Positions 620-16,082 of a DNA stretch of 30,712 bases are shown piece after piece. The notes below the pieces were generated by a model, which searched no databases, was not told where the DNA came from, and saw only the letters and a list, made by a program, of their open reading frames with translations. Where the stretch lies: positions 1 through 30,712 of the IMG/VR virus record IMGVR_UViG_3300022707_002195, one strand, 5' to 3'. The stretch comes from a virus. How positions within the stretch are numbered: the first letter of the stretch is position 1; every line of letters begins with the position of its first letter. Position numbers and translations under genes: made by a program.

Positions 620-655
620 TATCGTCACCCTTATGTTTGCGTTTGCTTGATGTTG

Positions 656-690
656 TAGTAATTATAGCAGGTTGCGCGCTACTGTAAAGT
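656..690 (-). promoter_or_regulatory. Sigma70-type promoter P2, near copy of P1
   Basis: On the minus strand, TTTACA (688-683) and TATAAT (666-661) are separated by 16 bases, the same geometry as P1. The spacer carries GTAGCGCGCAAC (682-671), the exact reverse complement of the P1 spacer palindrome. Similarity to P1 extends for roughly 45-50 bases including the region upstream of the -35 box. It drives the gene starting at 619. Confidence 0.75.
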
Positions 691-710
691 AAATAATCAC
701 GAAATGGGAA

Positions 711-4325: not shown

Positions 4326-4556
4326 TTATCCTCCTTTGTTTTCCGAAAACGAAATCGTTACATCTTCTCCAAGGGCTAAACTTAAAGATTTTTCTAGATG
4401 TTCCCTTGCTGCCCGATTCAAATCTACAAGATCCTTTAAAAGTCCTTTCACAAGATAAGATAAAACATATACTTGTGGATTTGAGCAATCTACATAATCT
4501 AGTAGCTCCGGTACCATCATTTTGGCCATTTTTGCTTTTTCTAATTCTTCTATCAT
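4326..4556 (-). CDS. Small helical protein, tandem paralogue (copy 2), 76 residues
   Basis: ATG at 4556, AAGGA 7 bases upstream. The product begins MIEELEKAKMAKMMVPELLDYVDCSN and contains PQVYVLSYLVKGLLKDLVDL and LEKSLSLALGEDVTISF. It is very similar along its length to the upstream gene at 4567-4824, so the two are a tandem duplication. All-helical, no signal peptide, no known motif. Its stop is 2 bases before the SSB-like start. Function unknown. Confidence 0.75.
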   Translation of the reverse strand: MIEELEKAKMAKMMVPELLDYVDCSNPQVYVLSYLVKGLLKDLVDLNRAAREHLEKSLSLALGEDVTISFSENKGG

Positions 4557-4790
4557 TATATAATCCTTATTTATCGGGGAAACTAATCGTTACATCTTCT
4601 TCAAGGGCTAAACTTAAAGACTTTTCTAGCTGTTCCTTTGATGCCAGATACAACTTTTCAAGATCTTTTACTAGCCCTTTCACAAGATATGATAAAACAT
4701 ATACTTGTGGATTTGAGCAATCTACATAATCTAGTAGCTCAGGTATCTTCATTTTGGCCATTTTTGCTTTTTCTACTTCAGCTATTTTTG
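4339..4790. repeat. Tandem duplication of a ~232-bp unit
   Basis: The two genes at 4326-4556 and 4567-4824 match at DNA level with an offset of 232 bases. The longest identical stretch covers about 50 bases (around 4459-4508 and 4691-4740), spanning the codons for the DYVDCSNPQVYVLS region. The high identity indicates a recent duplication. Confidence 0.8.
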
Positions 4791-4824
4791 CTTTTTGTAA
4801 TTCAGACATTCCTTTTTCATCCAT
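4567..4824 (-). CDS. Small helical protein, tandem paralogue (copy 1), 85 residues
   Basis: ATG at 4824 with GGGG about 7 bases upstream. Compared with its neighbour it has an extended N-terminus, in which the AKIAEVEKAKMAKM segment looks like a small internal duplication of the (E)KAKMAKM unit. The shared core is PELLDYVDCSNPQVYVLSYL, followed by KGLVKDLEKL and LEKSLSLALEEDVTISF. The copies differ mainly in the region after KGL(V/L)KDL. No known family. Confidence 0.75.
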   Translation of the reverse strand: MDEKGMSELQKAKIAEVEKAKMAKMKIPELLDYVDCSNPQVYVLSYLVKGLVKDLEKLYLASKEQLEKSLSLALEEDVTISFPDK

Positions 4825-9228: not shown

Positions 9229-9245
9229 AGCTCTAATCTCTTGTA

Positions 9246-9268
9246 AAAATGACCCCCGTAAGGGGGTC
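9246..9268 (-). terminator. Rho-independent terminator-like hairpin (copy 1)
   Basis: Read on the minus strand, GACCCCCTTACGGGGGTC is a perfect 7-bp stem with a TTAC loop, followed by ATTTTT. It lies between the stop of the 163-residue gene and the helicase start. A second copy is at 9801-9823. As all genes run the same way, it probably attenuates rather than ends transcription. Confidence 0.75.
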
Positions 9269-9289
9269 AAGGGGGCGGTAATCGTTATC

Positions 9290-9781: not shown

Positions 9782-9800
9782 GTTATTACTCCGTTGTTTA

Positions 9801-9823
9801 AAAATGACCCCCTTACGGGGGTC
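9801..9823 (-). terminator. Rho-independent terminator-like hairpin (copy 2)
   Basis: On the minus strand, GACCCCCGTAAGGGGGTC (7-bp stem, GTAA loop) followed by ATTTTTAAA. The flanking bases CCGTCCCCCTA are shared with the copy at 9246-9268 (CCGCCCCCTTG), so a unit of about 35 bases is duplicated. The loop sequence is the reverse complement of that in the other copy. Confidence 0.75.
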
Positions 9824-9841
9824 TAGGGGGACGGTAATTGT

Positions 9842-11698: not shown

Positions 11699-13465
11699 TT
11701 ACCGTTTTTTTGCTAAAGAATTTCTAACAAAATCAGCCATATTTTGTTTGTTATTTATTGCTGTCTTAATATCATTATCAATGGTATTTTCCGCTAAAAT
11801 ATCTATGTATAAAACCTTATTCGTTTGGCCAATTCTGTGGTTTCTATCCTCAGATTGTTTACGATGTACGTAATTAAAATTGTTACTCATATAAATTGAT
11901 AAGCTGGCAACATTTAAAGTTAATCCAACACCGCCCGTTGCTTGATTTGAAACAAAGAATCTTTTTTCTTTTGTCTTAAAAGCTTTTTCATTAATATCTC
12001 TACTCTCACTTGACACGCCGCCGTGATATTCCGCAACACATCCGATGCCATATTTAGTTTCCAAAGCCTCTACTATATTTGCAATTTCTTTTCTAAACCT
12101 GGACCAAATTATCACTGGCTTATCTTTATGCTCGTCTAATATTGCCAATAACTCTTTTATTTTAGGGTTTGTAACGCCCTTAACTATCTCAACTAACCTA
12201 CGTTCCTTTTGACCCTCCTGTGTATAAGTTACAAAACCGCTTACTATCTGTTGCAGTGCTAGATGCATCACTAGTATATTATCTGCTACAAGTTTTTCAT
12301 TCGACCCATCAGGATTTAGTACCGGTAAATCAGCCATTCGATCTTTTTTAATTTTTACATAAATATCTTTCTGCTCTTTCGTCAATTGCACTTTTCTCAA
12401 AGAGTATACTTTATCTGGTAAGTCTGGCAGGGCCTCTTTTTTAGTGCATTGAAACACCCAGGGCCTGATTAAATCCATCAGCTCTGGTATATTGTCATAC
12501 CCTGTAATCTGTTTTCCTTCAAAGCCACCCATCACTGCATAACGATTTCGAAAGCTATAATAATCACCAATGCCAATTATATCCGGGTTCAAAAACTCAA
12601 ACTGCATGTATAGGTCCATGATGGAGTTTGACACCTCTGTGCCAGTTGCTATCATGCGTTTCTTTGCTAGCAGCCCCAGGGACACTGCATTACGGGATCG
12701 GTTTTTATCATGATTTTTAATTTGATGCGCTTCGTCAATGACCATCATCGGGTTGTGACAGAGCATAAATTTCTCTACCAAATCCCAGGCTTTACCGGTG
12801 GGTCTTTTAGTTCTCTTGTCGATTCTTGATATCGATTCCGTGCCCACAATAAACACTTTTAACTTAGTTTGATCCCTGTGATAAATAAATTTATCTATCT
12901 CCCTTTCTTGTTTCTTAGTTTTTGGATTGCAAACTATAATGTCGTAATCTATCGGTGCATGTTCTTCAAATTGCTCAACCCAGTTAGATCTGATAGACAC
13001 CTGACACAGAATAACCAATGCATTGATAGTATGCGCTTTAAAATAGGCGCATGCAGTATCTATAATCACCTTTGATTTGCCGGTACCCATCTCCATATAC
13101 AACGCAAATTGGTCGAGGTCGTAAGCCTCGTGCAGTGCCGTCGTCTGGTGACTATACGGATCAGACCCAATCTTAAATTTGTAATCTTTTGGAAACCCCT
13201 GCTTGTTAACCATGCTAATATTGTTTTTTATGTTTAATATTACTTCAGCACATCCTGGCCCTAAGTTTATTACCCCTGCATCATTTAATTTAGTTATCTG
13301 CTCAGCATTACGAGATAGTGCCGGAGCTACCCATAGATCTTTCTTTTTGTAATATCTCCGATTTGGTAAACTCCGTACTGCAGTATTTAATTCAAACGAA
13401 ATTGGACATGCAAGATGGAATTTATTTGTTTTTGGTATGTAAGTTACTTCGATTTTAGAAGTCAT
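11699..13465 (-). CDS. SNF2-family superfamily 2 helicase/ATPase, 588 residues
   Basis: The ATG at 13465 overlaps the primase gene end by 11 bases, with GGAG upstream. Motifs: Walker A MEMGTGKS (about 124-131), motif II VIDEAHQIKNHDKNRS (DEAH about 244-247), motif III MIATGTEVSN, then C-terminal VIIWSRFRKEI, NQATGGVGLTLNVAS and motif VI SEDRNHRIGQTNKV. The DEAH box and QxxDRxHRIGQ signature place it in the SNF2/Rad54-like group. Many phages use such a protein as replicative or remodelling helicase beside a primase. The first ~100 residues look like an accessory domain (HARP-like features possible). Family certain, fork role inferred. Confidence 0.92.
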   Translation of the reverse strand: MTSKIEVTYIPKTNKFHLACPISFELNTAVRSLPNRRYYKKKDLWVAPALSRNAEQITKLNDAGVINLGPGCAEVILNIKNNISMVNKQGFPKDYKFKIGSDPYSHQTTALHEAYDLDQFALYMEMGTGKSKVIIDTACAYFKAHTINALVILCQVSIRSNWVEQFEEHAPIDYDIIVCNPKTKKQEREIDKFIYHRDQTKLKVFIVGTESISRIDKRTKRPTGKAWDLVEKFMLCHNPMMVIDEAHQIKNHDKNRSRNAVSLGLLAKKRMIATGTEVSNSIMDLYMQFEFLNPDIIGIGDYYSFRNRYAVMGGFEGKQITGYDNIPELMDLIRPWVFQCTKKEALPDLPDKVYSLRKVQLTKEQKDIYVKIKKDRMADLPVLNPDGSNEKLVADNILVMHLALQQIVSGFVTYTQEGQKERRLVEIVKGVTNPKIKELLAILDEHKDKPVIIWSRFRKEIANIVEALETKYGIGCVAEYHGGVSSESRDINEKAFKTKEKRFFVSNQATGGVGLTLNVASLSIYMSNNFNYVHRKQSEDRNHRIGQTNKVLYIDILAENTIDNDIKTAINNKQNMADFVRNSLAKKR

Positions 13466-15008
13466 TGGGTATCTCCACTTTGGGAATGTCAATATTATTA
13501 ACCTCTGTCAGTAACACATACCAAACCTCAATTGATTGTTTGTTATTTATGTATAACCTTGTATGTTGTACCCCAGTATTACGCATCACCACCCAAAGAT
13601 TTGCACCTTTGATATCTGAGCATTTACTCTTTTGCAAAAATTCAACAAAATCTTCACCGCGAAAATAAACCACCTTCCCGTTTATCTCGTCTTCTTTTCG
13701 ATACTGTACAACCGGAGCTCCCCGAGTCAGTGCCTCCCTGTCTTTTATCTGCAACCCATCTGTTTCTAGATCTGCTTTTTGTAAAAAAGTATTTAACTTA
13801 GCTCTCAGTATGCCAGATGTTGATGCAGTGTCTGGGGCCTCTATCACAGTTGCTGTATCCATCAGTGGGTAAAGTATTACTTGCCACTGTGTGTTCTTCA
13901 TAGGGGCCACCAACTTTGTCAACCGGTCTGCAATAGCTTCTCTAACTTTCCGATAATCTAATAGCTCAACTGAGGTTAGTGTGATATCCATTTCATCGAC
14001 TTCTAGTAACCACTTGACTGGGTCCGTTGTTATCTTTCTTAAGTTCCTAAATTTAGGGGGCTTACCCAGGGTCATCTCATTATTTTCATCCTCGGAGATT
14101 CCATATTTACGTGTCACGCAAACTTTGCTGTTACAGAGGCTCTTGCATGGTTCCTCGCTGCACTTGTATCTGTATGTCCTCCTAGCAACACTGTTGATAG
14201 TTTTTTCTGCTTCCGAATGTAAGATTGGAGAATCAAAAACCTTTGAATTTAAATCATATGCTTTGCCTTTCCAGGTTTCCGGAAACGCTTGTTTTACATA
14301 AACACTTAAATTAAACAATGCTATGTTTCTTTGGCCCTCTTGCACACCTTGGCTTATCATTTTTTGTATGCAAGGGGGTGCTCCGTTATGTTGAGTATCT
14401 GATTTCTCAACTAAAATTGACCCTGTCACTTTCCTAGATTCTGCGAGATCTAGGAAATAATCTAAGGGTATCTGCTTACCACCCTCTACTGAGTATCTTT
14501 TTGTGTTTTCAACATTAAAATAGCATAAATTTAACCAAGTGCCTCGTGACCTACTGCCATCCTCTTCGAGAACTAGTTGACCTTGCTTTGGGAAAATCTC
14601 ACACCCCCCATGACCAAGTAGCTCCGCCCATTTAGATAAGGCCGTACGGACTAAGGGTGCTTTTAATGGCTCCGCACCAAACAAATATAAATGAGCCCCT
14701 CCAGAATTAGTGCGACAAACAGACAGAGGTAAATCATTTTCCCGTACTTTCTTTTCTAGCGCCACCAAATCAATATCCGGCAAATCCCCATGCGCATCAA
14801 TATCAATAGCTCCAAAGTAACAAGTGCCATCGTCCATAATAGGCACAATTCCAACACCCATCTCACCACTCAAATGTTTTATAAACTCTTGTTCTCCCGG
14901 GACAATGTCGGATTTTGTAAACCTTCTGTCTGTTGGGGTACATTGTCCGTACGATCTCTCATTGCCCCTAAACAAAGACATAAATCTATTTGTTATTTCA
15001 TTACTCAT
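13455..15008 (-). CDS. Archaeo-eukaryotic-type primase (TOTE-like AEP domain), full length, 517 residues
   Basis: Synthesises primers for DNA replication. ATG at 15008 with GAGGTAGG upstream. N-terminal AEP domain: FRGNERSYG, catalytic D69-x-D71 in FGAIDIDAHGD, SGGAHLYLF (H106) and EIFPKQ (E137). Such D-x-D, S-x-x-x-H and E signatures, with the leading ‘LFRGNERSYG’, match the primase domain of TOTE-type systems. Residues ~205-300 contain a helical PriCT-like part and a zinc knuckle C283, C288, C292, C297. The last ~200 residues end in a winged-helix-like ‘LWVVMRNTGVQHTRLYI’ segment. A paralogue with only the first domain lies upstream. Followed by SNF2 helicase with overlapping codons. Confidence 0.88.
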   Translation of the reverse strand: MSNEITNRFMSLFRGNERSYGQCTPTDRRFTKSDIVPGEQEFIKHLSGEMGVGIVPIMDDGTCYFGAIDIDAHGDLPDIDLVALEKKVRENDLPLSVCRTNSGGAHLYLFGAEPLKAPLVRTALSKWAELLGHGGCEIFPKQGQLVLEEDGSRSRGTWLNLCYFNVENTKRYSVEGGKQIPLDYFLDLAESRKVTGSILVEKSDTQHNGAPPCIQKMISQGVQEGQRNIALFNLSVYVKQAFPETWKGKAYDLNSKVFDSPILHSEAEKTINSVARRTYRYKCSEEPCKSLCNSKVCVTRKYGISEDENNEMTLGKPPKFRNLRKITTDPVKWLLEVDEMDITLTSVELLDYRKVREAIADRLTKLVAPMKNTQWQVILYPLMDTATVIEAPDTASTSGILRAKLNTFLQKADLETDGLQIKDREALTRGAPVVQYRKEDEINGKVVYFRGEDFVEFLQKSKCSDIKGANLWVVMRNTGVQHTRLYINNKQSIEVWYVLLTEVNNIDIPKVEIPNDF

Positions 15009-15725
15009 GTACCTACCTCAAATCAAAATATCTCTAAACTCTGGTGTTAACTTTACATCTGTTTTTTAACCAGCGCTCCCCCTGTTATCTTTCTAGATTC
15101 CGCCAGATCAACAAAATAATCTAAGGGTATCTGCTTACCACCCTCTACTGAGTACCGTTTTGTTTTCTCGGTATCGAAATAGCACAAGTTTATCCAATTT
15201 CCAAATGCCCTAGTACCATCGTTACTAGTAAATAACGTACGTTGCGTTGGGAAAATCTCGCAGCCGCCGTACCCAAGTACCTGAGCCCACTTAGATAATG
15301 CTGTACGGACTAGCGATGCTTTCAGTGGTTCAGCACAAAATAAATATAAGTGAGCACCTCCGGATTTAGATCGACAAACAGATAGCGGTAAATCATTTTC
15401 TCTTACCCGTTTTTCTAAATCTGATAAATCAATGTCGGGTAAATCCCCGTGAGCATCAATATCGATAGCGCCAAAATAACACATGTCATCATCCATCACC
15501 GGCACGACACCAATACCTTGTTTGCCAGTCAGGTGTAATTCAAAATCGGATACTGTTGGTACCTGGTCCTTTACAGTTTCCATTTTATTATTAAGGTAAT
15601 ATCTACCGTATGATCTCTCATTGCCCCGAAACAAAGACATAAATCTTTTTGTTATCTCACTCATGCACCTACCTCAAATCAAAATATCTCTAAACTCTGG
15701 GGTTAACTCTACATCCGTTTTTTAA
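15006..15725. repeat. Tandem duplication, period ~656 bp (64-bp leaders at both ends)
   Basis: Bases 15006-15069 and 15662-15725 are direct repeats with 60 of 64 identical positions. Each holds the GAGGTAGG ribosome binding site and the ATG of a primase gene. The unit between them is the truncated primase copy. The leader is more conserved than the coding parts, which suggests that this sequence is functional or was recently exchanged. Confidence 0.85.
15053..15664 (-). CDS. Truncated primase paralogue: AEP domain only, 203 residues
   Basis: Second copy of the primase catalytic domain. ATG at 15664, GAGGTAGG upstream. It matches the first ~200 residues of the downstream primase at roughly 70% identity and keeps the catalytic D68-x-D70, H105 and E136; the FPKQ lysine is Thr. 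It ends at KKQM, where the sequence runs directly into a copy of the shared leader. The zinc knuckle, PriCT-like and winged-helix parts are absent. Intact frame, own ribosome binding site and retained catalytic residues argue against a dead remnant; it may be a separate polymerase/primase or regulator of the full-length protein. Confidence 0.85.
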   Translation of the reverse strand: MSEITKRFMSLFRGNERSYGRYYLNNKMETVKDQVPTVSDFELHLTGKQGIGVVPVMDDDMCYFGAIDIDAHGDLPDIDLSDLEKRVRENDLPLSVCRSKSGGAHLYLFCAEPLKASLVRTALSKWAQVLGYGGCEIFPTQRTLFTSNDGTRAFGNWINLCYFDTEKTKRYSVEGGKQIPLDYFVDLAESRKITGGALVKKQM

Positions 15726-15734
15726 AAACGTCAA
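15706..15734 (-). promoter_or_regulatory. Candidate promoter of the replication operon
   Basis: On the minus strand, TTGACG (15734-15729; five of six consensus positions) and TAGAGT (15711-15706; four of six) are separated by 17 bases. It lies about 40 bases upstream of the first primase gene, and the -10 part is inside the duplicated leader. The second primase copy keeps the -10 part only. Consensus match is moderate. Confidence 0.4.
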
Positions 15735-16082
15735 ATATTTTTTGAAAAAATATTAAAATTTACAACGCTATATATAAAGGAATAATTATTGTGTGTAGTG
15801 CAAAAGAAAAAACTTAGAAAATGATGGAATGAAGGAATAAGTATAGGAGAGGTAATAGATACGGTAGTTTAGACATTCGGGGATGGTGGAATAACAGTGG
15901 GATACTAATGGAATAAACACATTGCATAGGTCTCTGAATATTTTTTGTAACGTAACTAAAAAATATTTCCTTTATATATAGAAAATAATTTAATTAAAAA
16001 ACTGAAGTTGTGTTTACTTTTATTGAGGTAAGTTTTACTTTTTTAGAAGTGTGTTTTGAATATGTTATATTGGTGATAGGGC
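15726..16082. other. Non-coding AT-rich region; candidate replication origin
   Basis: This ~357-bp stretch has no gene. It contains: an inverted repeat with 10-bp arms AATATTTTTT and AAAAAATATT around one base (15733-15753); the same arms again around GTAACGTAACT (15938-15968); CTATATATAAAGGA (15769-15782) and its exact complement (15968-15981); and GGAATAA words at 15779, 15834, 15888 and 15910 plus GGAATGA at 15826. AT-rich DNA with inverted repeats and iteron-like words upstream of primase genes is typical of origins or regulatory regions. The origin role is inferred. Confidence 0.45.

Follow-up and report, generated by a model that had tools for sequence, protein, structure and literature searches.

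Partial tandem duplication of a phage primase gene adds a predicted stand-alone Prim-Pol core, likely a redundant copy under relaxed constraint

Why should a phage that encodes a full-length primase carry, just upstream of it, a second gene for the catalytic domain alone, and is this extra gene a retained component of replication or a leftover of recombination? The locus lies in the window (the whole stretch of DNA analyzed, a viral contig of 30.7 kb), a fragment of a contractile-tailed phage as judged from its tail sheath gene, in which the minus strand carries every gene treated here. Nearest to the primase pair lie an SNF2-type helicase gene (Table 1) and a tail/lysis module. The full primase is composed of a Prim-Pol core (residues 1–203), followed by PriCT-1 and a C-terminal alpha/beta region; among the PriCT-1 cysteines (C283, C288, C292, and C297), C283 and C297 are invariant and C292 is almost invariant. 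Residues 7–515 cover the whole PHROG 21866 profile of ~510–540 residues (E 2e-169). The AF2 model of the full primase (pLDDT 88.5) shows a confidence dip at residues 201–210, between the core and the helical region, which places the truncation point of the short copy at a domain boundary.

Two further features of this neighborhood were observed in comparison with the nearest relative, locus L001. The frames of primase and helicase overlap in the window, whereas L001 carries a 78-aa ORF between the two genes (L001:7192–7428). Upstream of the primase genes, a gap of ~420 bp contains an inverted repeat with 23-nt arms (15768–15790 and 15959–15981, 168 nt apart), which is a candidate regulatory or origin element; a similar pair (TATAAAGGAAA and TTTCCTTTATA) is found in the same place in L001.

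Table 1. Positions of the features of the primase locus in the window.
Feature	Position	Strand	Basis
Full-length phage primase, 517 aa	13455..15008	-	AEP-TOTE + PriCT_1 (Pfam), PHROG 21866 E 2e-169
Prim-Pol core of the full gene (duplicated portion)	14400..15008	-	direct-repeat comparison, AF2 model
Short copy, 203-aa stand-alone Prim-Pol (AEP) catalytic core	15053..15664	-	ORF; Pfam AEP-TOTE E 5.7e-14; PHROG 21866 E 2e-71
Leader copy 1, Shine-Dalgarno-like GAGGTAGG, before the short copy	15665..15728	-	repeat alignment
Leader copy 2, same Shine-Dalgarno-like element, before the full gene; holds the end of the short ORF	15009..15072	-	repeat alignment
Novel junction, short copy into leader 2 (AAAAAACAGATGTAA)	15053..15072	-	sequence, comparison with L001
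Full-gene segment (nt 63–498) departing from the duplication pattern	14511..14946	-	two-breakpoint scan; short copy pairs with L001
Codon 140 of the short copy, Thr for near-invariant Lys (FPKQ motif)	15245..15247	-	Lys in 116/117 homologues
Codon 101 of the full gene, Asn for near-invariant Lys (SKSGGAH motif)	14706..14708	-	Lys in 115/117 homologues, Arg in 1
Weak promoter-like TTGACG-17-TAGAGT before leader 1	15706..15734	-	hexamers also in L001; scan counts not above shuffles
SNF2-type helicase downstream, conserved neighbor of the primase	11699..13492	-	Pfam; primase-to-helicase order in annotated phages

An earlier note on this DNA had proposed that the leader and the catalytic domain were duplicated in tandem, and the ORFs and direct repeats support this view. 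Both ORFs were recovered with exactly the boundaries listed in Table 1, and the short one repeats the first ~200 residues of the primase, the N-terminal domains being 71% identical at the amino acid and 72% at the DNA level. Direct repeats with a spacing of 656–659 link 14421–15069 with 15080–15725, and the leader copies are identical at 60 of 64 aligned positions (57 of 61 over the part used in the mosaic comparison), in agreement with the duplicated 64-bp leader and ~656-bp unit described in the note. Residues 1–199 of the short protein are homologous to the full primase, while the last four (KKQM) derive from the second leader; the terminal KKQM* is encoded by AAAAAACAGATGTAA, with which that leader begins, confirming that the short copy runs into it. 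The likeness that the note had seen between the junction and the full gene, where GAGAAATCAGATAC resembles AAAAACAGATG, is real and short, and L001 has GAGCGATCTGATACA at that position, so that recombination at microhomology is plausible rather than proven. Against the PHROG 21866 profile, the short copy covers positions 5–213 of 538 only and does not qualify as a full-length member.

Tandem gene duplications are not unusual in this genome, since a second one lies at 4326–4824 (minus strand), where an 85-aa ORF (4567–4824), whose product has no PHROG match, is repeated as a 76-aa ORF (~4326–4556); these duplicates are 86% identical over 227 nt and lie directly upstream of the gene for a single-strand DNA binding protein. 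The window also contains a 62-bp direct repeat (87%; 109–170 and 647–708, minus strand) that flanks an ORF at 176–628 and includes, by eye, TTTACA-16-TATAAT on the minus strand, possibly a repeated promoter, as well as near-identical hairpin-like intergenic repeats (GACCCCC...GGGGGTC, 91%; 9244–9275 and 9799–9830), possibly terminators.

Each primase copy has GAGGTAGG before its own ATG as a ribosome-binding site. The -35 part of the promoter-like site is absent before leader 2, and no terminator was detected between the two copies in our scan. Because promoter counts did not exceed those of shuffled sequences, we can only infer that one transcript, started at the ancestral primase promoter before the short copy, probably covers both the short and full genes.

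The stand-alone gene is confined to this phage among the relatives that we examined. No second core ORF was found in the 143 primase loci scanned, setting aside two loci cut from the window itself (the ~140 loci overlap, some contigs having been fetched twice, e.g., L004/L041 and L006/L045, so the distinct contigs are fewer), and no second primase place was found in 24 phage records; the short copy is thus absent from all relatives examined rather than conserved among them. Most core-only matches on genome contigs fall inside ORFs of 418–927 aa, one match in a 231-aa ORF is weak and partial, and none of these matches adjoins a second core ORF. Relatives were recovered by searches with alignments A2 and A1, while searches with a single peptide, either the full primase or the helicase, returned none; an additional alignment search revealed no relative closer than L001, near-identical phages possibly falling outside the records searched. 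L001 is syntenic, carries a single primase, and shares ~76% DNA identity with the window on both sides of the duplication (75.7% and 76.2%); it is the only place outside the window where the leader pattern occurs. L002 is also single-copy. A literature search for duplicated phage primases yielded nothing relevant.

The identity of ~70% between the copies, quoted in the earlier note, holds as an average, underneath which lies a mosaic of segments that are 68.5–93% identical, and this mosaic means that the average does not date the duplication. Between the short and full copies, identity reaches 93% in the leader and 93% in codons 1–20, falls to 68.5% in codons 21–165, and rises to 78% in codons 166–205, where they are again the closest pair, whereas the short copy and L001 share 82% of the leader and 81% of codons 21–165. 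Site counts in codons 16–165, summed over ten 15-codon bins, group the short copy with L001 at 82 sites, the short with the full copy at 29, and the full copy with L001 at 33. Among silent codons, the short copy agrees with L001 in 27 and with the full copy in 8 cases in the middle, compared to 5 and 12, respectively, at the ends (Fisher p 0.002). A two-breakpoint scan fitted best with breaks in the full gene at nt 63 and nt 498 (p 0.003 from 300 permutations). Under a codon model with separate omegas for each copy, RELL support in the middle was 0.87 for short+L001 vs. 0.009 for short+full, and at the ends 0.69 for short+full. The protein tree of the whole core joins the short copy with L001 (98/89), and the AU test on the protein did not reject the short and full copies as sisters (p 0.08 for the whole core; 0.38 for the middle).

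In its C half, the full gene groups with L001 as sister (100/100) on equal branches, so that outside the middle segment it looks native. The leader and the ends of the duplicates are alike, and the duplication therefore looks younger than the split from L001. A duplication after that split followed by uniform divergence was considered and rejected for codons 21–166, where silent sites differ more between the short and full copies than between the short copy and L001. Since no donor of the middle segment was found, we infer, rather than observe, that codons ~21–166 of the full gene were probably replaced from a diverged relative.

According to its AF2 model (pLDDT 96.5, alignment of 55 sequences), which matches the CAPP core 7nqf_B with a Z of 21.6 and an rmsd of 2.5 over 190 residues, the short protein has an entire Prim-Pol core fold and looks autonomous. 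The catalytic D-x-D, H, and E residues that the earlier note had recognized are indeed present in it, namely D68/D70 (motif I), H105 (motif II), and E136 (the acidic residue of motif III), corresponding to D69/D71, H106, and E137 retained in the full copy. A review describes the CAPP core by itself as an efficient primase in vitro (PMC10345425), and as the whole core is predicted here, primase activity of the short protein is possible by analogy. Each copy has, on the other hand, lost a different lysine that is near-invariant among 117 distinct homologues (Table 1), the two columns having been picked because they deviated. A column of 97.5%-conservation grade is broken in 11 of 89 (~12%) single-copy homologues, so K140T together with K101N is only mildly unusual; the loss of a different lysine by each copy is a suggestive, not decisive, sign of degeneration in the sequences. 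In one single-copy relative (L029:3620–5137), FPVQ is found in place of FPKQ, with CQSKSGGAHC in motif II, and K140T thus need not kill activity. We found no role for the FPKQ or SKSGGAH lysines in the literature, where the passages on PolDom and NrS-1 treat other residues.

The claim that selection has kept both copies finds no support, given the mosaic, the raised dN/dS, the lysine losses, and the lack of any relative with the gene. In codons 21–165 of six taxa, omega was 0.40 for the short copy, 0.39 for the full copy, and 0.04 for the rest (p 7e-6 vs. one omega); with the short copy alone set apart, it was 0.48, indistinguishable from 1 (p 0.61), compared to 0.055 for L001. Across fits, the omega of the short branch ranged from 0.34 to 0.48 (p 0.5–0.6 vs. 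1), significantly above background, with values near 0.1 disfavored, so dN/dS near 1, the outcome that would speak against retention by selection, was largely found, on a branch that mixes time before and after the duplication. A four-taxon fit again raised the short branch (0.36–0.38) and the full branch less (0.195); the middle of the full gene may have evolved mostly in another phage. In the C half of the full gene, omega was 0.11 and not significantly raised (p 0.09). These estimates involve large synonymous distances to the outgroups and a region chosen after the mosaic was seen, and polarized N/S counts for the short copy vs. L001 were only suggestive (Fisher p 0.07–0.10). The raised omega in both cores suggests relaxed constraint, positive selection also being able to raise it. 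An intact frame as proof of selection was considered and rejected: the 4 differences among 61 leader positions correspond to ~3% change per copy, at which a neutral frame of 203 codons would escape a stop with a probability of ~0.4, so the intact short frame is unsurprising.

We therefore lean toward a lineage-specific partial tandem duplicate that can be expressed, is redundant, and drifts under relaxed constraint; the extra core looks like a by-product of recombination carried as a redundant spare, not an established helper enzyme. The unit of ~656 bp (the 64-bp leader and the first ~200 codons) is duplicated, an event that probably took place in an ancestor of this phage once it had separated from L001, with the new junction forming near a short AAAnCAGAT-like match, presumably through microhomology. 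The break may have fallen at the linker after the Prim-Pol core by luck or tolerance, leaving a truncated gene that, judging from sequence and model, encodes a foldable core and has its own ribosome-binding site. Codons ~21–166 of the full gene would then have been exchanged by recombination with a diverged relative, as the mosaic suggests. The two genes, partly redundant, probably share one transcript, and the raised dN/dS and one lost lysine in each core may be read as relaxed constraint. The short protein, if functional, would most likely be an extra, partly active, dispensable Prim-Pol core, not a dedicated helper, length regulator, or decoy. Against a spare copy stand the D-x-D, H, and E residues, the frame, the ribosome-binding site, and the clean domain boundary, all of which the short gene keeps as a kept gene would, as well as an omega estimate below 1, the mixed branch, the AU test, and N/S counts that are only suggestive.

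Several other explanations account for part of these observations. The two genes could form a subfunctionalized pair, both needed, in which a K140T core and a K101N core make up for each other's defect within a mixed oligomer or split initiation and extension. The loss of different near-invariant lysines, an omega raised similarly in both cores and not significantly in the C half, and the adjacency of two genes with a ribosome-binding site each would all fit such a pair, as would the self-association of the homologous MpCAPP; however, the latter occurs mainly via the TPR and CTD (PMC8211822), absent from the short copy, and similarly conserved columns are broken in about one in eight single-copy homologues, so we regard this explanation as unlikely. 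Its strongest form, in which a one-polypeptide primase has become an obligate two-component enzyme whose free core and full-length partner cover each other's active-site defects, is distinctly improbable; if true, it would represent a duplication-degeneration-complementation intermediate in a viral primase and a natural split primase. Selection for a helper or regulator, with a free core that extends primers, limits primer length, or serves as a decoy, would fit the complete core with its catalytic residues and the efficient priming of the isolated CAPP core in vitro (PMC10345425), but the absence of the short gene from all relatives examined, the raised omega, and the loss of the FPKQ lysine make it quite unlikely.

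An older duplication, preceding the split from L001, lost in L001, and followed in this phage by gene conversion that homogenized the leader and both ends, would explain without an outside donor why the middle of the full gene branches so deeply. It requires both the loss in L001 and conversion at two ends, and L002 and every other relative are single-copy, so we give it little credence. An assembly artifact joining two related strains has to be considered for a metagenomic contig in which the duplication occurs in one record only and is known from assembly alone; nevertheless, both flanks match L001 about equally, the copies differ by 28%, the junction lacks a long shared word usable by an assembler, and the full gene has a native-looking C half, all of which render it very improbable.

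The locus offers a snapshot of a phage duplicating the catalytic half of a replication enzyme, in which the ends still record the event, a stretch of the intact copy appears to have been exchanged by recombination, and the duplicated domain shows a raised dN/dS. A further lesson is that tandem phage paralogues of low identity are not necessarily old or kept by selection. The significance is modest, as the case comes from the sequence of one contig and lacks conservation in relatives.

Partial tandem gene duplication and mosaic recombination occur in phage genomes, and the present locus shares with such cases the direct repeat including the leader, the mosaic divergence, and the raised dN/dS. 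What sets it apart from phage partial duplications generally is that the truncation fell at a domain boundary and left the shorter copy with an entire catalytic core. Compared to the PHROG 21866 phages, whose named members include Acinetobacter phages JeffCo and DMU1, Klebsiella phage K21lambda1, Salmonella phage PMBT28, and Providencia phage Kokobel2, the full gene is an ordinary member of comparable length, matched end to end, and in those phages the primase likewise follows tail genes and precedes a helicase-type gene; the separate core gene occurs in the window only, each of 24/24 matched records having one primase place. Both copies score above the family cut-off of Pfam AEP-TOTE (PF22548). 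In contrast to AEP-TOTE systems, the gene here belongs to phage replication, and neither ORF contains further TOTE-type domains, since Pfam adds only PriCT_1, in the full gene, and no multi-domain conflict system of the TOTE type was recognized from the two primase ORFs. The closest structural parallel discussed here is the CAPP Prim-Pol of Marinitoga sp. 1137 (7nqd/7nqe/7nqf/7p9j/7qaz), with which the short protein shares the core fold over its whole length at only 22% identity and with Thr in place of the FPKQ lysine. No link to CRISPR was noticed among the nearest neighbors of the primase pair, and whereas in CAPP the core normally sits within a TPR-core-CTD protein, the short copy stands alone.
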